Shown here piece after piece: positions 5,349 through 30,053 of a stretch of DNA of 64,000 bases (positions are counted from its first letter, which is position 1; each line of letters begins with the position of its first letter). Location of the stretch: assembly GCA_005954745.1 (NCBI GenBank), contig CP040678.1, positions 2,604,001 through 2,668,000 of the forward strand, in the 5' to 3' direction. This DNA comes from Halostella pelagica (lineage in GTDB: Archaea > Halobacteriota > Halobacteria > Halobacteriales > Natronoarchaeaceae). The position numbers and the translations under genes are program-made. The notes beneath the pieces were generated by a model. The model had not been told where the DNA came from. It saw only the letters and a list, made by a program, of their open reading frames with translations, and searched no databases.

Positions 5349-7136
5349 GAGACAGCACGTTTTCGAACGGTCGACTACGACAACCGAAATCTATCTGCAC
5401 GGACGAGGGTGCCGACAGCGACAGGTCCGGTACGGACCGTCGGGGACGACGAATTACAACAGCGAAATATATCTTCTGTAGAGGCGAAACTGGGGGGTCG
5501 ATAGAAACAAAACTGACGGAAGGCAAATGGATGAAACTTGTATTGGGTTTATTCTAATAGGTCGGTGCCGGTCATAAGAAGTATAATTATTCCATAGATA
5601 ACAGAGAAAGAACACAACGGTTACAAATCCTGACCAACTGACAACGTCTCTGGACGCAAACCGATCTCGAACTCAGAACAGCACCTTACAGCACGGCTGG
5701 AGTAAACTGGCCAATCGAGCCGAAATACAGTAGTCACGTAACACTTCAAGCACTGATCGAATCGCTGTCGTGCGATCAGATATGGATTGGCTTTCAGTGA
5801 CAACCGTCACTCTCGGAGCAGAGGGTTTGGCGCTAATGTAGCGAGAGAACCAGTATCTCCGCGATGCCGGTCAGATGACCGGACCGTGGCGGGCCTGTCG
5901 TGTATCGGGAATAGTAACGCTGTATCCGTCGTCTGAGATAAGTCAGCTGAAAGAAAGAGGATTTCTTGAGAGATCCCGAGTTCGGTCTGGGAGAACATGA
6001 GTTGAAACGTCGCAGGTATTATAATAATACTGATATCAGTGTATAATTGTCTACTTTCATAATATCACACACTGGCATAGAGTAAACACTGGGCCTGTTT
6101 ATCCTACAGAGCCAGCTGGACAGAACTCCCGTCTCTCGTCGCCACTGGCGATCTCTGAACGCGTTCTTCCTGCCGTCACAGTCCTTTACACCCATAGGCC
6201 TGTGATAGGGTGACAGATCGAAAATCCCGCCAATCGCGACGGAAAACATAACGGGTGGGGAGAACACGTCGACTCACTCAACAGCGGCCACGGACGTACC
6301 TGAGGGGAGGAACGGCGATAGTGGCTTGCTGAGACTGAGACGGCGTACAAGTAACTCGGACAGAGATGCGATACGAACTCCTGGTTTCGAATCCACCATG
6401 GAAGACCGAACAGAGATACCAGATCTGCACCAATAGCCACTCTACCCCTCGTTTATCCGGGTATCAAAAGTTGCGGGACGAGAATATCGGTGAAGGAACT
6501 CCTCTCGGGAACCCGGTCAGGCGAAGAGGAGGAGGTTCCGAGCGCGGTATCGACTGGAGTTTCCGTTGACGGAAGCGAAACAGGACCGGACCCACCCCCA
6601 GTACAGATCGATCCCGTCGAATTCCTACGTTTAGCCGGGTTTCTGTTCGTTCGGCGTCTCTCGTTATTCTTCTCAGTTCCGTTCGAGGACACCATAACCG
6701 GAGCGTTTTGTACACTACTAGTGACTGATGTGCACTACTGTACGTTGTATTCTACTAATTCGGATCTCGATTGTTATTTCGGCTGTGGAAGTGCTAATCT
6801 TAACGGTCTCGAATTTACATGATTGTTAGTCAGAGTGTGGATATCATTCGTTTCTAGAGTACCCTCCGAGTGACGCGCTAAAACCACCGGATAACCGAAC
6901 GTGTTCTGGTAGCTAGTGATTCGCAAAATCCTACTTGCTTGGATATCCGTTGCTACAGTGGTCTCAAGGACGTGTTTTGCCTACCAAATCCGGTAGTTGG
7001 CGGCTGAGGCGGTCATACCACCGCGTTCTCCGAACTGCCTCGATATCTCTTTTCGGTTGCTTACGGGGACTTGCGAGTTCCACCTGTTCGATCACAACGG
7101 ATTTAACCACCGAAAATGATATTAGTGCTGTACATC
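5349..7136. other. Long gene-poor, AT-richer region
   Basis: About 1.8 kb with visibly lower GC than its surroundings. Open frames of 60-110 codons occur on both strands, but none has haloarchaeal acidic composition, a recognisable motif or a convincing start, and they overlap each other. The 110-codon frame at 6490-6822 (+) is the longest; its Cys/Leu/Ser-rich product is not like neighbouring proteins. This looks like decayed mobile or foreign DNA, or an unusual regulatory region; no transposase motif could be found. Confidence 0.5.
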
Positions 7137-7433
7137 ATGGAAGGCAATGCGCAGCAGAGAGACCAGTCGTGGGACGACGCGGCAGCACAACTGGAAGAGT
7201 ATCCACCGAGCGTGAAACTCGTCGCGAAAGTGCTGGACATTCACGGCGAACTGGGCCAGCAGGCGATCATCGAGGAAACCCTGCTGCCGTCTCGTACCGT
7301 CCGCCACGCCGTCAGCCTGCTAGACGAGAACGGACATCTAGACAGCAGACACTGCTGGAAGGACGCCCGCAAACGGCTGTACAGCTTAGAGCTCGACCAG
7401 ATAGAAACCGAGCAGCAGTCGATCGCACAGTGA
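7137..7433 (+). CDS. Winged-helix transcription regulator (MarR/Trh-like)
   Basis: 98 residues from the ATG at 7137. The core reads as a winged helix: PPSVKLVAKVLDIHGELGQQ, then a recognition helix IIEETLLPSRTVRHAVSLL and a wing around DARKRLYSL. Small proteins of this kind are common haloarchaeal regulators. An AT-rich box (atttaa, 7101) upstream is a candidate promoter. It precedes the aminotransferase by 60 nt on the same strand and may regulate it or the transporter beyond (inference). Confidence 0.72.
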   Translation: MEGNAQQRDQSWDDAAAQLEEYPPSVKLVAKVLDIHGELGQQAIIEETLLPSRTVRHAVSLLDENGHLDSRHCWKDARKRLYSLELDQIETEQQSIAQ

Positions 7434-7493
7434 TGGCCCACCCGTTGCAGGGGTCGACAACGGACATCGATACGGATCTAACGGAGCACGAAC

Positions 7494-8615
7494 ATGAGTA
7501 AATTCGCCACGCGCGTAGAAGAGATGGATATCAGCGGGATCAGGGAAGTGTTCGAGGCGGCGAGCGAAGACGCCATCAACCTCGGAATCGGACAGCCGGA
7601 CTTTCCGACGCCCGAACACGTCAGAGAGGCGGCGCTCTCCGCGATAGAGGACGAACTCGTCGACTCGTACACGTCCAACAAAGGGACACCCGAACTTCGC
7701 CAGGCCATCAGCGAGAAATACGAACGGGACAACGATATCGCCGTCGATCCGGACGACATCATCGCGACCGCCGGGGCCAGTGAGGCCCTGCACATTGCGA
7801 TCGAAGCCCACGTCGGACAGGGTGACGAAGTGATCTATCCGGACCCGGGTTTCGTCGCCTACAACCAACTGATACTGCTTGCTGGTGGCACGCCCGAGCC
7901 CGTCGGGCTGAGAGACGACCTCACTCTCGATCCCGCGACGGTCGAGGACGCGATAACCGAAGACACCGCGATGTTCGTCGTCAACAGCCCTGCGAACCCG
8001 ACCGGTGCTGTCCAGTCGGAAGCGGACATGCGGGAGTTCGCCCGTATCGCCGACGAGTACGACGTAGTCTGTCTGACTGACGAAGTGTACGAACACATCG
8101 TCTTCGAGGGCGAACACCGCAGTCCGATGGAGTTCGCAACCACCGACAACGTCGTTCAGGTGAACGCCTGTTCGAAGTCGTACTCGATGACCGGATGGCG
8201 GTTAGGCTGGGTAGTCGCGTCCGAGGAGCGGATCGAGCGGATGCTCCGTGTCCACCAGTACATACAGGCGTGTGCGAGCGCACCGTCACAGTACGCCGCT
8301 GAAGCCGCACTGTCGGGGCCTCAAGACCCGGTCGACGAGATGGTGGCCGCGTTCGAGAAGCGGCGCGACGTGGTTCTCGACGGACTGAACGACATCGGGC
8401 TGGAAACGCCGGAACCGAAAGGTGCCTTCTATGCGATGCCGAAAGTTCCGGATGGCTGGGCGACTGAAATGCTGGAAAACGACGTTGTCGTCGTTCCCGG
8501 TGACGCGTTCGGTGAAAACGGTGCCGGGTACGCGCGTCTCTCGTATGCAACCAGTATCGAAGAACTGAAAGAGGCGTTAGAAGTGATGAAATCTGTCACT
8601 CGGACATCCTTTTAA
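7494..8615 (+). CDS. PLP-dependent class I/II aminotransferase
   Basis: 373 residues, typical of the aspartate aminotransferase fold-type I subgroup. Visible landmarks: NLGIGQPDFPTP at the N-terminus, SPANPTG with the conserved Asn near 168, TDEVYE with the pyridine-binding Asp196, and the Schiff-base lysine K228 in ACSKSYSMTGWRLG. It transfers amino groups between an amino acid and a 2-oxoacid; the exact substrate cannot be read from sequence. The next gene on the same strand is a Na+-coupled NSS transporter with an own promoter, suggesting amino acid uptake and deamination. Confidence 0.92.
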   Translation: MSKFATRVEEMDISGIREVFEAASEDAINLGIGQPDFPTPEHVREAALSAIEDELVDSYTSNKGTPELRQAISEKYERDNDIAVDPDDIIATAGASEALHIAIEAHVGQGDEVIYPDPGFVAYNQLILLAGGTPEPVGLRDDLTLDPATVEDAITEDTAMFVVNSPANPTGAVQSEADMREFARIADEYDVVCLTDEVYEHIVFEGEHRSPMEFATTDNVVQVNACSKSYSMTGWRLGWVVASEERIERMLRVHQYIQACASAPSQYAAEAALSGPQDPVDEMVAAFEKRRDVVLDGLNDIGLETPEPKGAFYAMPKVPDGWATEMLENDVVVVPGDAFGENGAGYARLSYATSIEELKEALEVMKSVTRTSF

Positions 8616-18173: not shown

Positions 18174-19325
18174 ATGAAAATCGTTAACTACGAACTGTAC
18201 GAGGTTCCGCCCCGGTGGCTCTTCCTCGAAGTTACCACCAGTGACGGCCTCGTCGGCTGGGGTGAGCCGATAGTCGAGGGGCGGGCGAGTACAGTCCGCG
18301 AGGCCGTGGAGGATATCTTCGAGAACTATCTCCTCGGGAAAGACGCGTCTCGGATCGAAGACCACTGGCAGGCGATGTACCGCGGCGGGTTCTACAGGGG
18401 AGGTCCGATCCTGATGAGCGCTATCGCCGGCATCGACCAGGCGCTCTGGGACATCAAGGGGAAGCGACACGGACTGCCGGTGTACGAACTGCTCGGTGGA
18501 CCGTGTCGCGACCGAGTACGCGTCTTCCAGTGGATCGGCGGCGACCGGCCGGAGAACATCGCAGAAGAGGCGGAACAGCTCGTCGACACGGGGTACACCG
18601 TCCTGAAGATGGATGCCGCGGGACTCGTCGATTTCATCGACACGCCGTCGACGGTAAACCGCATCGTCGACCGAGTAGCGGGCGTCCGCGAGGCCGTCGG
18701 CGACACGGTTGACATCTGTCTCGATTTCCGGGGCCGCATCTCGAAGGCGATGTCGAAGCGCCTCGTCGCGAAACTCGAACCGTACGACCTGATGTTCGTC
18801 GAAGAGCCGGTTCTGCCCGAGCACAACGATTCGCTGTCTGCGATCGGAAACCACACCACCACGCCGCTCGCGACGGGCGAGCGAATGTACTCGCGATGGG
18901 ATTTCAAGCCGCTACTTGAGGAGAAAGCGGTCGATGTCGTCCAACCGAACCTCTCACATGCAGGGGGGATCACGGAGGTGAAGAAGATAGCGGACATGGC
19001 TGCCGCATACGACGTGGCCGTCGCCCCCAACTGCCCCGTCGGACCGATAACGCTTGCCTCGTCGATCCAGATCGCGATGTCCGTACAGAACTTCCTCGTG
19101 CTTGACCACGGGTTCGATATCCAGATGTCCTCAAAGGATATGGCCTACAAGTACCTCTCCGACGCCAGCGTGTTCGACCTCGAAGACGGCTACATCGAAC
19201 CGCCGGACGAACCGGGTATCGGGATCGCGATCGACGAAGAGACCATTCGGGCGCAGTCGGACAAGGAGATCAGCTGGCACAACATGATCTGGCGGCACGC
19301 CGACGGGAGCATCGCCGACTGGTGA
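18174..19325 (+). CDS. Enolase-superfamily sugar-acid dehydratase-like protein (DgoD relative)
   Basis: 383 residues, co-linear with E. coli D-galactonate dehydratase DgoD over its whole length: YRGGFYRGGPILMSAIAGID, ALWDIKGK, IGGDRPENI, the C-terminal WRHADGS. Metal ligands are kept: D184 (CLDF), E210 (VEEPV), E236 (TGERM). In DgoD the acid/base pair is H185 and H285; here the aligned residues are R186 (DFRGR) and N286 (APNCPVGP). So a galactonate-type dehydration is doubtful and another elimination or epimerisation is likely. It has a good ribosome binding site at 18157 and opens the catabolic island. Start chosen at MKIVNYELYEVPPRW, matching the family. Confidence 0.9.
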   Translation: MKIVNYELYEVPPRWLFLEVTTSDGLVGWGEPIVEGRASTVREAVEDIFENYLLGKDASRIEDHWQAMYRGGFYRGGPILMSAIAGIDQALWDIKGKRHGLPVYELLGGPCRDRVRVFQWIGGDRPENIAEEAEQLVDTGYTVLKMDAAGLVDFIDTPSTVNRIVDRVAGVREAVGDTVDICLDFRGRISKAMSKRLVAKLEPYDLMFVEEPVLPEHNDSLSAIGNHTTTPLATGERMYSRWDFKPLLEEKAVDVVQPNLSHAGGITEVKKIADMAAAYDVAVAPNCPVGPITLASSIQIAMSVQNFLVLDHGFDIQMSSKDMAYKYLSDASVFDLEDGYIEPPDEPGIGIAIDEETIRAQSDKEISWHNMIWRHADGSIADW

Positions 19326-19855: not shown

Positions 19856-20554
19856 ATGGATCTACTAGCCATTGTGGCACATCCTGACGACGCAGACATC
19901 TTCTGCGGTGGCACACTCGCAAAGCACGCTGACCGGGGCGACGACGTCGTCGTCGCCCACATGACGCGGGGAGAGTACGGCGGGTTCGACACGACCGAGT
20001 CGGATATCGCCGCGACCCGGGAGGCGGAAGCGACGGAAGCGGCGGAGGTGCTTGGCTGTGACTGTACGTTCCTGGGTTTCGAAGACGGACGTATTACGTA
20101 CTCGCTGGAGAACCGACGGCGCATCGTCGAGGTGATCCGGCAGTACGAACCCGCAGTCGTCCTCACGCACTACGAGGACGACATGCATCCGGACCACCGC
20201 ACGACCTCTGAACTGGTTACGGACGCATACTACATGGCGTCGCTTCCGCTCGTCGAGACGGAGTCCGACCCGCACGACCCGGACAACGTCTACTTCTTCG
20301 GCAAGCCCACGTCGTCGTTCGACCCCGAGGTGTACGTCGACATCGCGGAGTATCAGGAGACGAAAGAGCGAGCGATCGAACGCCACAAGTCCCAGGTGAG
20401 TTTCCTCCAGGAACACGGCGGAATCGACGGGGAGTTCGACGACCTCGTCGACAGCACTCGTGCGGAAGCACGCGTCCTAGGAACGGAAGCCGGCGCGCAG
20501 TTCGTCGAGGGGTTCGTACCGTTACATCAGCCGACGACCGACTACCTACGATGA
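19856..20554 (+). CDS. PIG-L family deacetylase (LmbE-like)
   Basis: 232 residues. The zinc-binding signature HPDDADIFCGGTLAKHA is at the N-terminus and the second zinc ligand region THYEDDMHPDHRTTSELV near residues 100-120. Family members remove the acetyl group from N-acetylglucosamine-containing substrates (PIG-L, MshB, BshB, chitin-oligosaccharide deacetylases). No signal peptide, so it acts in the cytoplasm on an imported substrate. The ABC ATPase, RidA and PLP lyase genes follow on the same strand, which points to an N-acylated amino sugar as the nutrient (inference). Confidence 0.92.
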   Translation: MDLLAIVAHPDDADIFCGGTLAKHADRGDDVVVAHMTRGEYGGFDTTESDIAATREAEATEAAEVLGCDCTFLGFEDGRITYSLENRRRIVEVIRQYEPAVVLTHYEDDMHPDHRTTSELVTDAYYMASLPLVETESDPHDPDNVYFFGKPTSSFDPEVYVDIAEYQETKERAIERHKSQVSFLQEHGGIDGEFDDLVDSTRAEARVLGTEAGAQFVEGFVPLHQPTTDYLR

Positions 20555-20684: not shown

Positions 20685-21806
20685 ATGAGTACCGTATCGA
20701 TCCAGGACCTGAAAAAGGTCTATCGGAGCACCGACTCCCCAATCGTCGCCGTCGAAGGACTCGACATCAGTATCGAGGACGGCGAGTTCCTCGTGTTGGT
20801 CGGCCCGTCCGGCTGTGGCAAGTCGACCACGCTCCGCTGTATCGCCGGGCTGGAGACAGTCACTGAGGGCGAGATCACCTTCGACGGGAAACCCGTCACC
20901 GACGACAAGCCGAAAGACCGGGACATCGCGATGGTGTTCCAGAACTACGCGCTGTACCCGCATTTCACCGCTCGGGAAAACATGGCGTTCGGCCTCAAGA
21001 TGACGACTGAGCTCTCGGACGCCCAGATCCGCCCCAAAGTGGAGGAGGTGGCACAGATGATGGGGATCGAGGACCTGCTGGAGAAACAGCCCGGCGAGCT
21101 ATCGGGCGGCCAGCAACAACGGGTCGCTCTCGGTCGAGCCATCGTCCGCGACCCGAAGGTGTTCCTGATGGACGAACCGCTCAGCAACTTAGACGCAAAA
21201 CTGCGCTCGGAGATGCGCACCGAGTTACAGAACCTCCAAGAGCAACTGGGCGTAACGACGGTGTACGTCACTCACGACCAGACCGAAGCGATGACCATGG
21301 GCGACCGCGTCGCGGTACTCAACGACGGCGAACTCCAGCAGATCGGCACGCCGCTCGAATGTTATCACGAACCGGAGAACATCTTCGTCGCCGGGTTCAT
21401 CGGCTCGCCGGAGATGAACCGTCTGGACGTGCGCCTCGACGGCGACCGCCTCGTCGACGAGGAACTGTCCTATCGGATCCTCGAAGGGACCGCAAAACGC
21501 ATCAACAGCTCCGAACTGACGCTGGGAATCCGGCCCGAACACATCCGGGTGTCGGACGACCTGGCGAACGCGGACCTCACTGCGGGTGTCTCCGTCGTGG
21601 AACCGATGGGCCAGCAGACCAACCTCTATCTCGAGTTCGGCAGCGAGACGTTCACCGCAACCGTCACCGGCGAGACGATGTTCGAATCCGGCGACACCGT
21701 CGGGATCGAGTTCCCGCACGAATCGGTCCACCTGTTCGACCGCGCCACCGGCGAGGCACTGGTCCACGGGATGGAACAAGCCACTTCACCGGATCAGACG
21801 GCCTGA
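20685..21806 (+). CDS. ABC transporter ATPase, UgpC/MalK/MsmK type
   Basis: 373 residues. Walker A GPSGCGKST, Q-loop FQNYALYPHFTARENM, signature LSGGQQQRVALGRA, Walker B VFLMDEPLSNLD and the H-loop VYVTHDQTEAM are intact. A C-terminal TOBE/regulatory domain begins near residue 240 (GFIGSPEMNRLDVRL; LGIRPEHIRVSDD). This subfamily energises carbohydrate importers. The matching binding protein and two permeases lie at 24955-28144, separated by RidA, a PLP enzyme and the dehydrogenase. Confidence 0.95.
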   Translation: MSTVSIQDLKKVYRSTDSPIVAVEGLDISIEDGEFLVLVGPSGCGKSTTLRCIAGLETVTEGEITFDGKPVTDDKPKDRDIAMVFQNYALYPHFTARENMAFGLKMTTELSDAQIRPKVEEVAQMMGIEDLLEKQPGELSGGQQQRVALGRAIVRDPKVFLMDEPLSNLDAKLRSEMRTELQNLQEQLGVTTVYVTHDQTEAMTMGDRVAVLNDGELQQIGTPLECYHEPENIFVAGFIGSPEMNRLDVRLDGDRLVDEELSYRILEGTAKRINSSELTLGIRPEHIRVSDDLANADLTAGVSVVEPMGQQTNLYLEFGSETFTATVTGETMFESGDTVGIEFPHESVHLFDRATGEALVHGMEQATSPDQTA

Positions 21807-21813
21807 TAACTCC

Positions 21814-22188
21814 ATGGACTCTATCACAACTGACGACGCACCGGAAAGCATCGGACCGTTCTCCCAGGCAGTCCGGGACGACGGGACTATCTACGTCTCC
21901 GGACAGGGGCCTGTCGACCCCGACACCGGACAGATCGTCGACGGGGGAGCGGGTGACCAGACCAGACGGACTCTCGACAACGTGGCGGCCATCCTCGAAG
22001 CCGCCGACTGCGACTTCGGCGACGTGGTGAAAGTGACAGTGTACACCCGCGACATGGAGGCCTACGACGAGATCAACGACGCCTACGCCGAGTACGTCGA
22101 CCCGCCGTATCCCGCCCGTTGCGCCGTCGAGGTCAGGGACCTGCCGATCGATATCGACGTCGAGATCGAGGCGATCGCCCATGGGTGA
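21814..22188 (+). CDS. ridA: RidA family enamine/imine deaminase
   Basis: 124 residues from the ATG at 21814, 7 nt after the ABC ATPase stop. The signatures GPFSQAVRDDGTIYVSGQ, FGDVVKVTVYTRDM and YPARCAVEVRDLPIDIDVEIEAIA are those of RidA (YjgF); the catalytic Arg (PARC) and C-terminal Glu are present. RidA hydrolyses reactive enamine/imine intermediates released by PLP-dependent ammonia-lyases. The next gene is such a PLP enzyme, so the pair makes chemical sense: RidA would finish its deamination (inference). Confidence 0.94.
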   Translation: MDSITTDDAPESIGPFSQAVRDDGTIYVSGQGPVDPDTGQIVDGGAGDQTRRTLDNVAAILEAADCDFGDVVKVTVYTRDMEAYDEINDAYAEYVDPPYPARCAVEVRDLPIDIDVEIEAIAHG

Positions 22189-22233: not shown

Positions 22234-23463
22234 ATGACCGAACCACCGACAGACGCACACACTACGATGACAACAGAGAACGTATATCAGCGACTCGGCG
22301 TGGAAGAAGTGATCAACGCGGCAGGCACCAAAACTCGCATCGGCGGAAGCCTCATTCGGCCGGAGGCGGCGGACGCGATGCGAGAAGCAGCCAACGGCTT
22401 CGCGGAGATCTCCGAACTCCAGGCACGAGCGTCGGAACTGATTCGGGACGTAACCGGCGCGGAGGCCGGATACGTGACGTCCGGAGCGAGTGCTGGACTG
22501 ACGATGGCCGCTGCGGCCTGCATCGCTGGTGACGACCCCGAGAAGATGCGTCAGTTGCCGTCGACCGACGGGATCCCCGATCGGATAGTCGTGCCTCGAA
22601 GTCACCGGAGCAGTTACGACCACGCCTACCGCGTCGCCGGGGCGACGATAGCAGACGTCGGCGCGAACGACCACCGCCTCGGAACGGGCGCGGAAAACAC
22701 TAAGCTCTGGGAGATCGACGCCGCGATCGACGAGGAGACGGTCGCCGTCGGCTACATGCAGAAGCCGTCCACGGACCCGCCGCTGGCGGAGGTCGCCGAG
22801 GTCGCCCACCGCCACGACGTGCCGGTCATCGTCGACGCCGCCGCCGAACTCCCGCCGGTCGAGAACCTGCGGCGTTTCGTGGACGCAGGTGCCGACCTCG
22901 TTGCGTTCAGCGGCGGGAAAGCGATCCGGGGGCCACAAACTACGGGGATCCTTGCCGGTCGGAAAGACCTGATCCGGTCGACCGCGCTCCAGCATCTCGA
23001 CATGCACGAACACCGGGCCATCTGGGACCCGCCGGCCGGCCTCATCGACAGCGACGCGGTGGACGGCATCCCCGGCCAGGGCGTCGGTCGCGGGATGAAA
23101 GTGAGCAAGGAGGAACTCGTCGGCCTGATCACGGCACTGGACCTGTTCGTCGAAGAGGACTTCGCCGCGTCGTCCCGCAAGTGGCGAGCGCAGGCCGAGG
23201 GGATAGTCGACGACGTGGACTCTCTCGACTGCGTATCGACGCGAGTAGACGGCGGTGACGTTGCGACCGTCGTCGTCACGGTGGACGGAGCGGCTGCCCC
23301 GGCCTCCGCGACGGACGTCGTTCGACGCCTTCGCACGGGGTCCCCGCCGATATTCGTCGGGAGCGACGACATCGACCGGGATCAGTTCACCATCAACCCG
23401 ATGTGTCTCGCCGACGGGGAGGCTGACGTTCTCGTCGACCGACTCTACGAGATCCTCTCTTGA
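22234..23463 (+). CDS. PLP-dependent lyase of the SelA/DgaE family
   Basis: 409 residues (398 if the in-frame ATG at 22267 is used, which matches relatives starting near YQRLGVEEVINAAGT). The fold-type I landmarks are VTSGASAGLTMAAAACIAGD, Asp201 in VIVDAAAELPP and the Schiff-base lysine K229 in FSGGKAIRGPQTTG. The closest characterised relatives that I recognise are D-glucosaminate-6-phosphate ammonia-lyase DgaE and other SelA-like enzymes, which eliminate ammonia from 2-amino sugar acids. A true SelA is excluded by its length and by the catabolic context. RidA directly upstream fits an ammonia-lyase yielding an enamine product. Confidence 0.85.
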   Translation: MTEPPTDAHTTMTTENVYQRLGVEEVINAAGTKTRIGGSLIRPEAADAMREAANGFAEISELQARASELIRDVTGAEAGYVTSGASAGLTMAAAACIAGDDPEKMRQLPSTDGIPDRIVVPRSHRSSYDHAYRVAGATIADVGANDHRLGTGAENTKLWEIDAAIDEETVAVGYMQKPSTDPPLAEVAEVAHRHDVPVIVDAAAELPPVENLRRFVDAGADLVAFSGGKAIRGPQTTGILAGRKDLIRSTALQHLDMHEHRAIWDPPAGLIDSDAVDGIPGQGVGRGMKVSKEELVGLITALDLFVEEDFAASSRKWRAQAEGIVDDVDSLDCVSTRVDGGDVATVVVTVDGAAAPASATDVVRRLRTGSPPIFVGSDDIDRDQFTINPMCLADGEADVLVDRLYEILS

Positions 23464-23625: not shown

Positions 23626-24645
23626 TCAGGGGCGGAGAACCGCTTTGATCACGCCGTCACGTCGCTCGGTCACCGTCTCGAACGCTTCCTCGTACGCCGC
23701 GAGCGGGAACTCGTGAGTGACGATGCCGTCGACGCTCAGGTCCCCTCGGCGGAACAGTTCAGCGCATTCGTCGACGGCGTGGGCGGCGGTCACACCGCCG
23801 ACTACCTCCAGTTCCTTGGCGACGATGTCGTTCGGATCGACCTCCCGTAGACCGTCGAACACGCCGGTGAGAACCACTGTCCCGCGCTTTCCGGCGGCCT
23901 GCAAGCAGGTGTTCACCACGTCGCCGGCACCCGCCGCCTCGACGCAGATGTCCGCGCCGTCGCCGTCGGTGTGGTTCCGGATGGCCTCGACCGGGTCTTC
24001 CTCGCGGACGTTGACCGTCCGGACAGCGCCGTAGTCCGCTCCCACGGAGAGCCGTTCGTCGCGGGTGCCAGTGAGAACGATATCTCGGACGCCGCGGGCG
24101 CGCAGGAGCTGGACGCCGAACAGGCCGAGCGACCCGGGGCCGAGGACGACGGCGGTGTCTGTCACTGACGTTTCGACGCGTCGAAGCGCGTGCTGGGTAC
24201 AGCCCGCGGAATCTATCTGCGTCGCGGCGACATCGGAGATGTCGTCCGGCAGGGGCCGAAGCGTCTCCTCGGGGAAGGTGGCGAACTCGCGGTATCCTCC
24301 GTCGATCGTAAAGCCGATCTCCTGTAAGTCGCGGCACTGGTAGTAGCGCCCGTCCCGGCAGTGGGTGCAGGTACCGCAGTAGACGAACCCGTGGAGCGAG
24401 ACGCGGTCGCCGACGGAAAGCGACGTTACGTCGTCGCCCAGTTCGACCACCTCGGCACACACCTCGTGTCCGGGGACCAGCGGATACTCCGTCCACGGCG
24501 GCCCCTCGCCGTGGATCAGACCGACATCGCTGCCGCAGATGCCGACGGCACGGACCCGCACCAGAGCTTCGCCCGGTTCCGGTTCCGGCCGGTCGCGGTT
24601 CTCCTCCCAGATGGTACCACTCCCATTCGTGACTAGCGCTCGCAT
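23626..24645 (-). CDS. Zinc-dependent medium-chain alcohol/sugar dehydrogenase
   Basis: 339 residues. Catalytic zinc ligands in GICGSDVGLIHGEGP and GHEVCAEV, a structural zinc lobe CGTCTHCRDGRYYQC, and a Rossmann motif VVLGPGSLGLFGVQLLRARG. It belongs to the MDR group with threonine, sorbitol and galactitol-phosphate dehydrogenases. It is the only gene of the island on the minus strand here, convergent with the PLP lyase and divergent from the binding-protein operon. A role in oxidising the imported sugar or its amino derivative is inferred. Confidence 0.92.
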   Translation of the reverse strand: MRALVTNGSGTIWEENRDRPEPEPGEALVRVRAVGICGSDVGLIHGEGPPWTEYPLVPGHEVCAEVVELGDDVTSLSVGDRVSLHGFVYCGTCTHCRDGRYYQCRDLQEIGFTIDGGYREFATFPEETLRPLPDDISDVAATQIDSAGCTQHALRRVETSVTDTAVVLGPGSLGLFGVQLLRARGVRDIVLTGTRDERLSVGADYGAVRTVNVREEDPVEAIRNHTDGDGADICVEAAGAGDVVNTCLQAAGKRGTVVLTGVFDGLREVDPNDIVAKELEVVGGVTAAHAVDECAELFRRGDLSVDGIVTHEFPLAAYEEAFETVTERRDGVIKAVLRP

Positions 24646-24954: not shown

Positions 24955-26277
24955 ATGGCAGACAGCCATAGCCAGCTAGACGTACATAGTAGTCGGAGAA
25001 GCGTGCTGAAAGCGACCGGCCTGACGGGGACAGTCGGACTCGCCGGCTGTCTCGGCGTGCTGGGCGACGGCAACGACGGTGACGTGACGCTCCAGGTCCG
25101 TCACATGGACGCACCGGGACTCGAAGACCAACTCGACAAACACACCGCGGATTTCGAGGACGAAACCGGGATCGCAGTGGAGTACGAACTCATGGGCTGG
25201 GGCGAGGCGTCGGAACAGCAGATGGCGAGCATCACGAGCCAGAGCGGTCCGGACGTCGAGGAGATCGCTTCCTCGTGGATCCCTCAGCAGGTCGAAGCGG
25301 GCGGCTGGATGGACATGCAGGAGATAGACGGATATCAGGAACTGGACCCGTTTTTCGACCCTGTCCAGGACGTTGCGATGTACGACGGCAAGCAGATCGG
25401 TGTCCCCTGGTACTGGGGACCGCGCGGACATCTTCAGTACGACCCGCTTCTGGAAAATGCTGGCCTCGACGGATCACCGTCGACGTGGGACGAACTCGCC
25501 AACATGAACGAGCAGTTCCAGTCGGAGTATCCGGACAAGAACCTCTTCGGGCTGACCGGCGTCGTGCCGGACCTCGGCCACCACTTCGCGACGCTGACCT
25601 GGCAAAACGGCGGTCAACTGCTCTCGGACGATAACTCGGAAGTCACGTTCAACAGCGACGCGGCCGTCGAAGGGATGAACTACTGGGCGAGTCTGATCAG
25701 CGAACACGACGCCATCCCGTCTAGTTCCGCCGAGTGGGGACCGAACGAGATCAACAGCGCGTTCATTAACGAGCGGATCGGAAGCCTCTGGGGGTCGCTG
25801 ACTGCCGTCGAGCGCTTCGAAGAGGAGCGAGACGACGTCTCCCGCGAGGACTTCTCGATCCACGAACTCCCCGCCGGACCGAACGGCGACAGCGCGACGT
25901 TTTTCGGCCTCGAACTCGTCGGAATTCACCCCTGGACGGACCACCCCACGGAGGCCGCCAAGTGGGTGAGTTACCTCTCAAAACAGCAGGTCAACGGCGA
26001 ACTCTCCAAGTCCGTCGGATTCCTGCCGACTCGCGAGGACAGTTTCGAACTGGACATCTACGAGGGACACCTGTACGACAGTTTCCAGGAGGAGATCCTC
26101 CCGACCGGGAAAACCTTCCCCGCCGTCCTCGGCTGGGGGCAGGTCGAAGAGTCTATCAACAACGCAGTCGGCGAGATCCTCACGTCCGTCGCCACCGACA
26201 ACTGGGACGAGAGCGTCACTCGTGAGGAACTCGACGACGCGGCCCAACAGGCCCAGAACGCCCTAGACAATCAATGA
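24955..26277 (+). CDS. ABC transporter extracellular solute-binding lipoprotein (sugar type)
   Basis: 440 residues. A Tat signal (SSRRSVLKATG) ends in the lipobox LAGC with Cys32 as the lipid attachment site, so the protein is folded inside, exported by Tat and anchored outside. The mature part is a family 1 carbohydrate binding protein: hinge regions DEIASSWIPQQ-like, NLFGLTGVVPDL, and EAAKWVSYLSKQ near the C-terminus. It overlaps the first permease gene by ATGA (26274-26277), forming a tight operon. The substrate is not readable; neighbours favour an N-acylated amino sugar or its acid. Confidence 0.94.
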   Translation: MADSHSQLDVHSSRRSVLKATGLTGTVGLAGCLGVLGDGNDGDVTLQVRHMDAPGLEDQLDKHTADFEDETGIAVEYELMGWGEASEQQMASITSQSGPDVEEIASSWIPQQVEAGGWMDMQEIDGYQELDPFFDPVQDVAMYDGKQIGVPWYWGPRGHLQYDPLLENAGLDGSPSTWDELANMNEQFQSEYPDKNLFGLTGVVPDLGHHFATLTWQNGGQLLSDDNSEVTFNSDAAVEGMNYWASLISEHDAIPSSSAEWGPNEINSAFINERIGSLWGSLTAVERFEEERDDVSREDFSIHELPAGPNGDSATFFGLELVGIHPWTDHPTEAAKWVSYLSKQQVNGELSKSVGFLPTREDSFELDIYEGHLYDSFQEEILPTGKTFPAVLGWGQVEESINNAVGEILTSVATDNWDESVTREELDDAAQQAQNALDNQ

Positions 26278-27287
26278 GCGAGGGCTCCTCCGACACGACA
26301 TCGGGACACGCCGTCGGCGATCCGGAAAGCCGTGATACCCACGGGGTGAGCGGATGGATCCGACAACGGACTCGCCTTACCGAGGAGAACAGGTACGCCT
26401 ACAAGCTCATCCTCCCGGCGATCGCCATGATGTTCATCATCCACTTCGTTCCGATCGTCTGGGGGTTCGCGATCAGCTTCATGGAACTCGACGCGCTGTA
26501 CATCGCTCGGTGGACGGAAGCGCCGTTCACCGGCCTCAGCAACTACACGCGGGTACTCGACCCGGCGACGATAGTCGGCCAGCGCTACTGGTTCTCGCTC
26601 CGCCAGACGCTCATCTTTACCGTCGGGAGCGTCGGCGGTGCCTACGTTCTTGGACTGATCACGGCGCTGATCCTGAACCGCGGGTTCCGGGGGAGCAAGG
26701 TGGCCCGAACGCTGATCCTCCTTCCCTGGATATCCCCGATCGTCGTCGTGTTGCTGACTTGGCGGATGATGCTCCTCTCGGACACGGGGATCATCAACCA
26801 CCTGCTACAGACGGCGGGGATCATCGACGAACCGATCCTCTGGCTGCTCGGAAGCAAGACGATCATCTCGGTGACGCTCACCAACGTCTGGATCTACTTC
26901 CCGTGGGCCACGATCATGCTGTTTGCGGGGCTGAAATCGATCCCCAACCAGTTGTACGAGGCGGCATCGATCGACGGTGCCGGTCGGTGGGGGAAGTTCC
27001 GCTACGTAACGCTCCCGCAGTTGAAACCGGTGTCGGCCGTCGTCGTGCTGTTGATGGTGCTCTGGTCGATGATCAACTTCACAGTGCCGTTCGTGCTCAC
27101 CGGTGGCGGGTCTGGCCGACACGGTGAAGTGCTGATGCTGTTCATCTACAACTACGCGTTCCAGAACTACGAGTTCGGGCTGGGTGCGGCGATGAGCGTC
27201 GCTCTCTTCCTGGTCGCGATGGTGTTAGCGATGGTCTACTACCGAAAGGTTATCGACGACAGCTTCGGCGGAGGTATCGGCGGATGA
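26274..27287 (+). CDS. ABC sugar transporter permease (MalF/UgpA type)
   Basis: 337 residues. A soluble 45-residue N-terminus precedes about six membrane helices (LILPAIAMMFIIHFVPIVWG; LILLPWISPIVVVLLTW and others). The EAA loop that contacts the ATPase is EAASIDGAGRWGKFRYVTLP. It overlaps the binding protein gene upstream and the second permease downstream by 4 nt each, so all three are translationally coupled. Confidence 0.94.
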   Translation: MSEGSSDTTSGHAVGDPESRDTHGVSGWIRQRTRLTEENRYAYKLILPAIAMMFIIHFVPIVWGFAISFMELDALYIARWTEAPFTGLSNYTRVLDPATIVGQRYWFSLRQTLIFTVGSVGGAYVLGLITALILNRGFRGSKVARTLILLPWISPIVVVLLTWRMMLLSDTGIINHLLQTAGIIDEPILWLLGSKTIISVTLTNVWIYFPWATIMLFAGLKSIPNQLYEAASIDGAGRWGKFRYVTLPQLKPVSAVVVLLMVLWSMINFTVPFVLTGGGSGRHGEVLMLFIYNYAFQNYEFGLGAAMSVALFLVAMVLAMVYYRKVIDDSFGGGIGG

Positions 27288-28144
27288 AGATGAAAGACGA
27301 ACACCGGGACATGCTGTTCGACCTGCTGGCCAAGTCGGTACTCGTCTGTATCCTCATCTTCGCGTTGTTCCCGATCTACTGGATGGTCATCACCAGTTTC
27401 CGCACTTGGTCTGACGTGACCCAGACCGACCCCAGCCTGCTACCCACGTCGTTTTACTATCAGAACTATCTGGACATGTGGGACCGCTTCCCGCTGATCG
27501 ACTACTTCGTGAACAGCCTCGTCATCTCGCTAACGACGACGGCGCTCGCGCTGTTCATCGGGAGCCTCGCCGCGTACGCGTTCTCCCGGTACGACTTCCC
27601 CGGCAAACAGCTGTTCGGCGGCGCGATCCTCGGGACCCAGATGATCCCCGGCGTGTTGATCCTGTTGCCGATGTATCTGCTGTTCGTCTGGGTCCAGACG
27701 AACGTCGGGATCCCGCTACGGAACACGTATCACGGAATGATCTTCGTGTACACGACGTTTACCGTTCCGTTCGCGATCTGGATGCTTCGAGGCTTCTTCG
27801 ACACGATCCCCGCGGCACTGGAAGACGCCGCGCGTATCGACGGCTGTACGCGTTTCCAGGCGCTGATACGGATCGTGTTCCCGCTTGCGGCACCGGGTAT
27901 CGCCGCCACCGGGATGTTCGTGTTCATCGCCGCCTTCAACGAGGTGTTGTTCGCGTCCATCCTGGCGTCCAGCGACGTGACGCCGTTCGCGATCGGGATC
28001 ACCCGGTTCGAGGCCCGTTCCCAGACCTTCTGGGGACAGATGATGGCCGCTTCGACGGTGGCGACGATCCCGCTGTTGGCGCTTTTCATCCTCTTCCAGC
28101 GGCCGATCGTCGAGGGACTGACGTCGGGGAGCGTGAAGCAGTAG
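27284..28144 (+). CDS. ABC sugar transporter permease (MalG/UgpE type)
   Basis: 286 residues, six predicted membrane helices, starting with KSVLVCILIFALFPIYWMV-type first helix. The EAA loop is EDAARIDGCTRFQALIRIVFP. It is the second half of the heterodimeric membrane channel. The stop is 48 nt before the TIM-barrel-like protein gene, likely the same operon. Confidence 0.94.
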   Translation: MKMKDEHRDMLFDLLAKSVLVCILIFALFPIYWMVITSFRTWSDVTQTDPSLLPTSFYYQNYLDMWDRFPLIDYFVNSLVISLTTTALALFIGSLAAYAFSRYDFPGKQLFGGAILGTQMIPGVLILLPMYLLFVWVQTNVGIPLRNTYHGMIFVYTTFTVPFAIWMLRGFFDTIPAALEDAARIDGCTRFQALIRIVFPLAAPGIAATGMFVFIAAFNEVLFASILASSDVTPFAIGITRFEARSQTFWGQMMAASTVATIPLLALFILFQRPIVEGLTSGSVKQ

Positions 28145-28192: not shown

Positions 28193-29188
28193 ATGGTCGA
28201 GACTGGCACTAGTTACTTCGGCGTCCGGAGCGAGAGCCACGTCCGGGAAGACCTGGACCGGTTCCGCGAGCGCGGCCTCGACGCCGTCTTACACACGTTC
28301 AGCGAACGCGACCGGGAGTACTATCAGGAGACGATGGCGGATATCGTCTCGGCGAGTCACGAGCGAGGGTTCCGGGTGTACGTCAACCCGTGGGGCGTCG
28401 GACGCGTCTTCGGCGGCGAGGCGCTCTCGGAGTTCATCGGTCGTCACCCGGAGGCCTGCCAACAACTATCGACGGGACAACGCCTTCCAGCGGCGTGTTT
28501 CAACCACCCCGAGTTCCGGGAGTACATGCGAGAGTGGTCCCGCGATGCGGTCGCGACCGGCGCTGATGTCGTCTTCTGGGACGAGCCACACTGGTACATT
28601 CCCGAATGGCACGGCGACGAGATACCCCAGGGTGCCTGGACCTGCCGGTGTTCCGCCTGTCAGGACCGATACGAACAGGAGTACGGCGAGGAGATGCCCG
28701 CCGAGCGGACCGACTCGGTCGACGAGTTCCGGGAGGAGTCCCTGCTCGATTTCTTCGAGGAGATGACCGGCGTCGTGGCCGCCGAAGGGGCTGAAAACGC
28801 CGTCTGCGTTCTCCCCAGCGACGACTGGGACCACGGCCTCTCGGACTGGGACCGACTCGCGAGCCTCGAAGCCCTCGACGTGTTCGCGACCGACCCGTAC
28901 TGGGCGATCCACGACCACGACTGTGCGGAGTTCGTGGCCGACAGCACGGCACGCGTCACCGACCTCGCGGACCGGTACGACCTCGAAAGTCAGATCTGGG
29001 TACAGGGCTTTCGGCTCGACGACGGGGCGGCGACGGTCGAGGACGTGGCGACCGCGACGCGGGCCGCCCTCGACGGCGACGCCGACAGCGTGTTTATGTG
29101 GGGGTACGATGCCTGTGAGTCCATCTCAAGTATCGCCTGCGAGGACCCCGAGGCCGTCTGGGAGTCGTATCTGATGGCGCTGCCCTGA
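28193..29188 (+). CDS. Putative cytoplasmic TIM-barrel (glycoside-hydrolase-like) protein
   Basis: 331 residues, no signal peptide. It shows barrel-like alternation: RGLDAVLHTFSERDREYY, GFRVYVNPWGVGRVFGGEA, GADVVFWDEPHWYIPEW, LEALDVFATDPYW, SQIWVQGFRL, DSVFMWGYDACES. A Cys cluster CRCSACQDRYEQEYG resembles the CxCxxCq motif found in many uncharacterised hydrolase-like barrels and could bind a metal. Acidic residues at the strand ends (WDEPHW) are candidate catalytic residues. I cannot assign a known family; its place as last gene of the importer operon suggests it processes the imported compound. Confidence 0.75.
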   Translation: MVETGTSYFGVRSESHVREDLDRFRERGLDAVLHTFSERDREYYQETMADIVSASHERGFRVYVNPWGVGRVFGGEALSEFIGRHPEACQQLSTGQRLPAACFNHPEFREYMREWSRDAVATGADVVFWDEPHWYIPEWHGDEIPQGAWTCRCSACQDRYEQEYGEEMPAERTDSVDEFREESLLDFFEEMTGVVAAEGAENAVCVLPSDDWDHGLSDWDRLASLEALDVFATDPYWAIHDHDCAEFVADSTARVTDLADRYDLESQIWVQGFRLDDGAATVEDVATATRAALDGDADSVFMWGYDACESISSIACEDPEAVWESYLMALP

Positions 29189-29270: not shown

Positions 29271-30053
29271 ATGAACGATTCGCGCGGCGAGACGGTCGAC
29301 GCGACGCGGACGGCGTTCGACATCGTCGAGACGCTCGCGGCGGTAGACGGCGCGCGACTGACCGACATCGTACAGGAACTCGACCTCCCGAAAAGCACGT
29401 GCTACAAGCACCTTCAGACGCTTCAGTCGCTCAACTACGTCTACCGTGACGGCTACGTGTACCACGTCTCCCCCCGTTTCGTCGAGATCGGAAACGCCGT
29501 CACGTCGAATCGGCAGGTACCCGAGTTCCGCTCGGAGATAGACCGCCTGGCGGAGATCACACAGGAAGTCGCCGGTGTGTACGTCGAGGTCGGCGGTCTC
29601 GGCACCGACGTCTACCAGACCGTCGGAGAGAGCGCCGTGGAGGATATCGGCGAAGTCACGAACAGTGCGTATCTCCACTGCACGGCCCCGGGAAAAGCGA
29701 TCCTCTCCGGACTCGACGAGGACCGAGTGTCCGAGATAGTCGAGGGACACGGAACGCCGACGTACACCCAAAACACCATCGCGGACGCGGAGGAACTGTT
29801 CGACGAACTGTCCCGCATTCGCGAACGCGGCATCGCCTTCGAGCGCGGAGAGCAAGACGAGGCGGTCCGGAGTCTCGCGATGACCGTTCCGGACGCCGTG
29901 ACCGATAGCAACGTCGCGGTGTACGTGGCCGGGCCGGCAGACCGTATCACCGGCAAGCGCTTCGAGCAGGATTACCCGGGCATCCTCGCCGACATGCTGA
30001 ACCAGATCGAACGCGACTACGCCGATGAGCAGTTCCCGTCGAGCACTCAGTGA
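29271..30053 (+). CDS. IclR family transcription regulator
   Basis: 260 residues. Winged helix at about 10-70 (RTAFDIVETLAAVDGARLTD; ELDLPKSTCYKHLQTLQSL), then the effector-binding domain (HCTAPGKAILSGLDEDRV, RERGIAFERGEQDEAVRSLA, VAVYVAGPADRITGKRF). It ends the catabolic island and is the natural candidate for its local regulator, responding to a sugar-acid or 2-oxoacid intermediate (inference). It is only distantly like the IclR at 10252. Confidence 0.94.
   Translation: MNDSRGETVDATRTAFDIVETLAAVDGARLTDIVQELDLPKSTCYKHLQTLQSLNYVYRDGYVYHVSPRFVEIGNAVTSNRQVPEFRSEIDRLAEITQEVAGVYVEVGGLGTDVYQTVGESAVEDIGEVTNSAYLHCTAPGKAILSGLDEDRVSEIVEGHGTPTYTQNTIADAEELFDELSRIRERGIAFERGEQDEAVRSLAMTVPDAVTDSNVAVYVAGPADRITGKRFEQDYPGILADMLNQIERDYADEQFPSSTQ

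Follow-up and report, generated by a model that had tools for sequence, protein, structure and literature searches.

How chitin-eating haloarchaea catabolise GlcNAc has been described as not yet recognised (PMC12343721). The 2025 paper on Natrarchaeobius genomes that makes this statement reports chitinase clusters with CE14, DGA, GDH, IclR, RutC/RidA and a gene labelled 'GAD (galactonate dehydratase)', and proposes that GlcNAc is converted through glucosamine and glucosaminate to KDPG by a deacetylase, a glucose dehydrogenase, an unknown kinase and a DgaE-like lyase (PMC12343721). In the available excerpts of that paper the 'galactonate dehydratase' is drawn in the cluster figure and given no step in the pathway, and the annotation is kept at face value, with no comment on the active site (PMC12343721). 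A bacterial system offers a second point of reference. In the ong pathway of Pseudoalteromonas, N-acetyl-glucosaminate is converted to KDG by a deacetylase together with a PLP deaminase, and RidA is essential (PMC9537276). A deacetylase, a PLP enzyme and RidA are also encoded in the haloarchaeal cluster described here; by contrast, the bacterial enzymes are of the D-aminoacylase and D-amino acid deaminase type, and the excerpted text describes no enolase-superfamily member in their cluster (PMC9537276).

The locus analysed here lies in a stretch of 64,000 nucleotides from Halostella pelagica, hereafter the window. It encodes a DgoD-like protein of the enolase superfamily (18174–19325, plus strand, 383 aa), identified by profile matches, alignment and a phylogenetic tree. 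The protein resembles DgoD (E. coli b4478; R. pickettii 3RR1/3RRA; PRK14017) in full-length homology, fold, metal ligands, K145 and most of the scaffold. It differs by five replacements (H185 to R, H285 to N, D258 to N, N146 to D and E310 to D) and by another gene neighbourhood.

Active site of the DgoD-like protein

The N- and C-terminal MR_MLE domains of the window protein scored above their curated cut-offs (PF02746, 95.9 bits; PF13378, 217.8 bits), and the model for the D-mannonate dehydratase ManD fell short (NF043051, 263.8 bits against a cut-off of 550). An AlphaFold2 model built with 40 related rows reached a mean pLDDT of 87, and its best fold matches in the PDB were the DgoD entries 3RRA/3RR1 (TM 0.88–0.91). 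D184, E210 and E236 are invariant across 40 aligned rows and lie at the ends of strands 3, 4 and 5, the ligand arrangement of the MR/MLE type of the enolase superfamily.

For reference we used DgoD of E. coli K-12 (b4478, sequence from NC_000913), in which we take H185 to be the general acid, H285 the general base and D258 the partner of H285. The original prediction held that both catalytic histidines had been replaced, that the metal ligands had been kept and that this was not a random misalignment; each of these statements was borne out. By BLASTP the two proteins align across all 383 columns at 46% identity, interrupted by one gap near residue 49, and the alignment is consistent in sequence and fold with R. 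pickettii 3RR1/3RRA, the nearest relative of solved structure. The pairwise comparisons with E. coli DgoD and 3RR1 place no histidine at either position: R186 (codon 18729–18731; this and all following codons on the plus strand) aligns with H185 (LDFRGR against LDFHGR), and N286 (19029–19031) aligns with H285 (APNCPVGP against APHCPLGP), with which a five-row alignment concurs. The interval initially singled out, 18729–19031, runs exactly from codon R186 through codon N286. Retained in the same alignment are the metal ligands D184 (18723–18725), E210 (18801–18803) and E236 (18879–18881), equivalent to DgoD D183, E209 and E235.

Three more swaps in the active region had been overlooked: N146 to D147 (18612–18614), D258 to N259 (18948–18950) and E310 to D311 (19104–19106). 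The first turns K-x-N into K-x-D where barrel strand 2 ends; in the AlphaFold2 model strand 143–147 ends at D147 and strand 180–184 ends at D184. Judged from the aligned residues, the remodelling of the active site is thus broader than the two histidines and includes D147, N259 and D311.

The NCBIfam equivalog model for galactonate dehydratase (NF010624, PRK14017) scored 573.6 bits (cut-off 311), in a test that leaves the catalytic residues outside. At those residues the window protein departs from DgoD, having R186 for the histidine general acid, and N286 and N259 for the histidine base and its aspartate partner. On sequence grounds, it is a member of the enolase superfamily that fails DgoD membership at the defining catalytic residues.

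A haloarchaeal clade and its relatives

Proteins are designated below by their residues at the positions of DgoD H185 and H285. Of the haloarchaeal homologues read that have comparable identity, the majority are H/H and some, like the window protein, are R/N. All R/N proteins read have KMDA, DFRGR, N-C-P and D311, whereas ordinary haloarchaeal proteins have KMNA, DFHGR, H-C-P and, where aligned, E311. The combination D147/R186/N286/D311 is common to 39 haloarchaeal proteins including that of the window, and K145, D147, D311 and all three metal ligands are invariant in the R/N clade. Position 259 is invariably D in the ordinary proteins, and among R/N proteins it is D, A, V or N; drift at this site, the former partner of the histidine, is to be expected once the His-Asp dyad is lost.

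In a maximum-likelihood tree from which the trait columns had been removed, the 39 R/N rows fell on one side of a branch with support 100/99. The window protein is a long, early-branching member of this clade, and its exact place inside it is weakly supported. One clade of 39 rows with the same residues rules out a single decayed gene. An exact DNA-pattern scan of ~85,000 species genomes (DF-R-G, then N-C-P-x-G-P at the correct spacing) found 24 matching stretches, in haloarchaea only and in genera that include Natrinema, Natrialba, Natrarchaeobius, Haloferax, Haloarcula and Halomicrobium; because pattern scans demand exact matches, their counts are underestimates. The R/N signature occurs in 37 of 392 sampled haloarchaeal genomes. 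The R/N proteins are best explained as a haloarchaea-specific clade that split off from ordinary D-galactonate dehydratase and is still 60–65% identical to its parent.

The members of this clade might nevertheless remain galactonate or gluconate dehydratases that employ other residues as acid and base, as the 46% identity to E. coli DgoD and the 573.6-bit match (cut-off 311) would suggest. We consider this very improbable, since the residue swap is clade-wide and coordinated, and ordinary H/H DgoD is present in the same group of organisms, in unrelated neighbourhoods.

A third class of haloarchaeal DgoD-like proteins, R/H, has R186, retains the histidine at 286 and carries S/A at 147 and A at 311. 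Members are located at L171 (4908–6059 and 16125–17276), L172 (9532–10683) and L173 (8981–10132), and also at loci L167–L170. The class groups with the R/N clade (support 92/88). Three R/H loci lie near genes for an FGGY kinase and a class II aldolase, not the aminosugar set, and two of these three are also near FAD oxidoreductase, HbpS-like and ThuA genes. No H/N protein was found among 197 genomes searched for half-way states. Given this absence and the existence of the R/H class, an order of change in which arginine came first and asparagine later is plausible, with the R/H sister class as a possible intermediate toward R/N.

In two of four R/H members the metal ligand E236 is replaced by Q. 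This loss in a sister class, together with the disappearance of both textbook acid/base groups, would be in keeping with a pseudoenzyme, or a regulatory or structural partner, that binds metal and performs no catalysis. Within the R/N clade, however, the metal ligands, K145 and the new D147 and D311 are invariant, and most substitutions are at third codon positions; we regard a non-catalytic role as decidedly unlikely. Separately, locus L096 contains a further DgoD homologue (7032–8156) that is 47.6% identical to the window protein, with an ordinary DgoD gene ~1.5 kb away.

The aminosugar-oxidation cluster

Between 18174 and 30053 the window holds the genes by which an aminosugar-oxidation cluster is recognised: PIG-L, DgaE-like, RidA, IclR, an ABC transporter and a sugar dehydrogenase. 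The 20 R/N loci outside the window have the same gene set in varying order, and the counts that follow refer to all 21. On the plus strand, the DgoD-like gene is accompanied by genes for a PIG-L family (GlcNAc-type) deacetylase, BshB1-like (19856–20554; 17 of 21 loci), a sugar ABC transporter ATPase of the UgpC/MalK type (20685–21806; 19 of 21), a RidA-type enamine/imine deaminase (21814–22188; 13 loci besides the window copy) and a SelA/DgaE-like PLP enzyme with a GGKxxxGPQ lysine motif (22234–23463; 20 of 21). The last is a putative glucosaminate ammonia-lyase; it scored 211 bits against the model of its nearest named relative, far below the 600-bit cut-off, and its substrate is putative. 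Further along the same strand are an ABC solute-binding protein (24955–26277; 18 of 21), two ABC permeases (26274–27287, 16 loci; 27284–28144, 17 loci) and an IclR-type regulator (29271–30053) that is present at every locus.

The sugar dehydrogenase varies between loci. A glucose-dehydrogenase-type enzyme is encoded at 16 of the 21 R/N loci, the window not among them. Here the dehydrogenase belongs to a subtype other than family F05: it is a Tdh-like zinc alcohol/sugar dehydrogenase (23626–24645, minus strand), copies of which, 76–80% identical, stand beside SelA-like genes at L109, L110 and L121. The glucose-dehydrogenase-type gene was not found at these three loci, and in the window organism it lies far from the cluster, ~2 kb from a gene whose match to the DgoD model is below the cut-off. 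The two enzyme types may be alternative C1 dehydrogenases, the Tdh-like one possibly substituting in the window.

An uncharacterised TIM-barrel protein with a glycosidase-like fold is encoded between the permeases and the regulator (28193–29188, plus strand). Searches of Pfam and NCBIfam gave no match to it; its AlphaFold2 model (pLDDT 84.6) resembled, at low identity, glycosidase barrels of the clan-A type (GH5, GH42, GH14-like) in a fold search. The protein is conserved, its WDEPHW motif is invariant, and the gene turns up again next to SelA-like and PIG-L genes, whether or not the R/N gene is present. It may represent a new family of aminosugar glycosidases.

As a control, SelA-like, PIG-L and RidA genes were all absent within ~10 kb of 14 ordinary H/H DgoD loci. 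At the level of genomes, the SelA-like PLP lyase gene was found in 88 of 392, comprising 37/37 R/N genomes against 51/355 others (Fisher 8e-28), and a GH18 match in 27/37 R/N genomes against 23/355 others (5e-20); these p-values ignore shared ancestry and are indicative only. GH3 and GH18 genes occur at several R/N loci. The window organism's genome gave no GH18 chitinase match, which leaves chitin unsupported as this organism's own substrate.

The Natrarchaeobius chitinase clusters, as far as the excerpts of that paper depict them, are of the same type as the R/N loci, and Natrarchaeobius genomes carry the R/N signature; on this basis the gene drawn there as 'GAD' is presumably the R/N gene (PMC12343721). 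Taken together, recruitment of the R/N clade into oxidative catabolism of aminosugars derived from chitin or GlcNAc is the best explanation of these associations.

At 20 SelA-like loci that lack the R/N gene, PIG-L, RidA and a dehydrogenase are often present, and the matching solute-binding protein and permeases are absent. It follows that the core pathway can run without the R/N enzyme, and that the R/N gene and the transporter go together. The link to import raises the alternative that the enzyme dehydrates a different sugar acid of this cluster, such as the aldonic terminus of an oxidised chito-oligosaccharide brought in by the linked ABC transporter, in place of a free aminoaldonate. The DgoD pocket is, however, built for a monomeric hexonate, its scaffold is little changed and there is no sign of an oligomeric substrate, which makes such an activity quite improbable.

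Putative reaction and significance

The original prediction of a changed substrate or reaction is well supported by four pocket swaps that are invariant in the clade, by the retained metal ligands and by an aminosugar neighbourhood that is absent from ordinary DgoD loci. Its corollary, a substrate that needs no acid/base groups, found no support, as D147, K145 and D311 could serve. An amino-substituted sugar acid, one of the substrates then suggested, is the best candidate in view of the genome context.

Glucosaminate and N-acetyl-glucosaminate are the C2-nitrogen analogues of gluconate, and gluconate and galactonate share the same configuration at C2 and C3. A descendant of DgoD would thus be a natural binder of glucosaminate-type acids, and the change of asparagine to aspartate beside C2 would suit a positively charged C2 amino group, which favours action on an aminoaldonate. 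We tentatively propose that the R/N proteins are enolase-superfamily enzymes of oxidative aminosugar catabolism whose substrate has shifted from galactonate to a C2-amino or C2-acetamido gluconate, with a putative reaction; this is a possibility that we take seriously while stopping short of calling it probable.

The sugar would be imported, then deacetylated, and oxidised at C1 to D-glucosaminate (or N-acetyl-D-glucosaminate). The R/N enzyme would bind this C2-nitrogen gluconate analogue on Mg2+, the nitrogen being faced by D147, which this fold places next to C2. A metal-stabilised enolate would form and, less surely, the C3 hydroxyl would be expelled; RidA would hydrolyse the enamine/imine product to 2-keto-3-deoxygluconate, in parallel to the PLP lyase. 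The class of substrate, a C2-nitrogen aldonate, is the firmer part of this scheme; we are guessing at the elimination across C2-C3 and at which residue, D147 or K145, is the base. In a more specific version, which we put forward as doubtful, a dehydratase/ammonia-lyase of the enolase superfamily, cofactor-independent and acting on D-glucosaminate or N-acetyl-D-glucosaminate, arose from DgoD through the D147/R186/N286/D311 site and works beside the PLP lyase and RidA.

Several observations speak against a C2-nitrogen aldonate enzyme of this kind. Since the PLP lyase by itself should turn glucosaminate into a keto-deoxy acid, another enzyme for the elimination seems redundant, and the R/N gene is missing from roughly half of the genomes that carry the lyase. 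Arginine and asparagine are poor acid/base groups, and the window organism has no GH18 chitinase. The redundancy would end if the enzyme were instead a C2 epimerase for a C2-amino or C2-acetamido aldonate, or acted on the C2 epimer (mannosaminate type), feeding the PLP lyase its stereoisomer, with D147 deprotonating from the face opposite the old H285. In mandelate racemase the second lysine of the K-x-K motif is the base, and K-x-D occupies its place in the R/N clade, where the base on the H285 side is lost and D147 is new and invariant. Yet epimerases normally have one base per face, N286 cannot be a base and many lyase clusters run without the R/N gene; we judge epimerisation unlikely.

The description of an aminosugar-cluster enzyme with a rebuilt acid/base site rests on the results above, whereas its substrate, base and product are what we infer from them. 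Given the score of the window protein against the galactonate dehydratase model, the whole R/N clade likely receives that automatic annotation, and for the whole clade it is probably wrong. The R/N gene is an unexplained member of the haloarchaeal chitin/aminosugar cluster, and its clade constitutes a natural case in which the entire acid/base set was exchanged at 60–65% identity to the parent enzyme.
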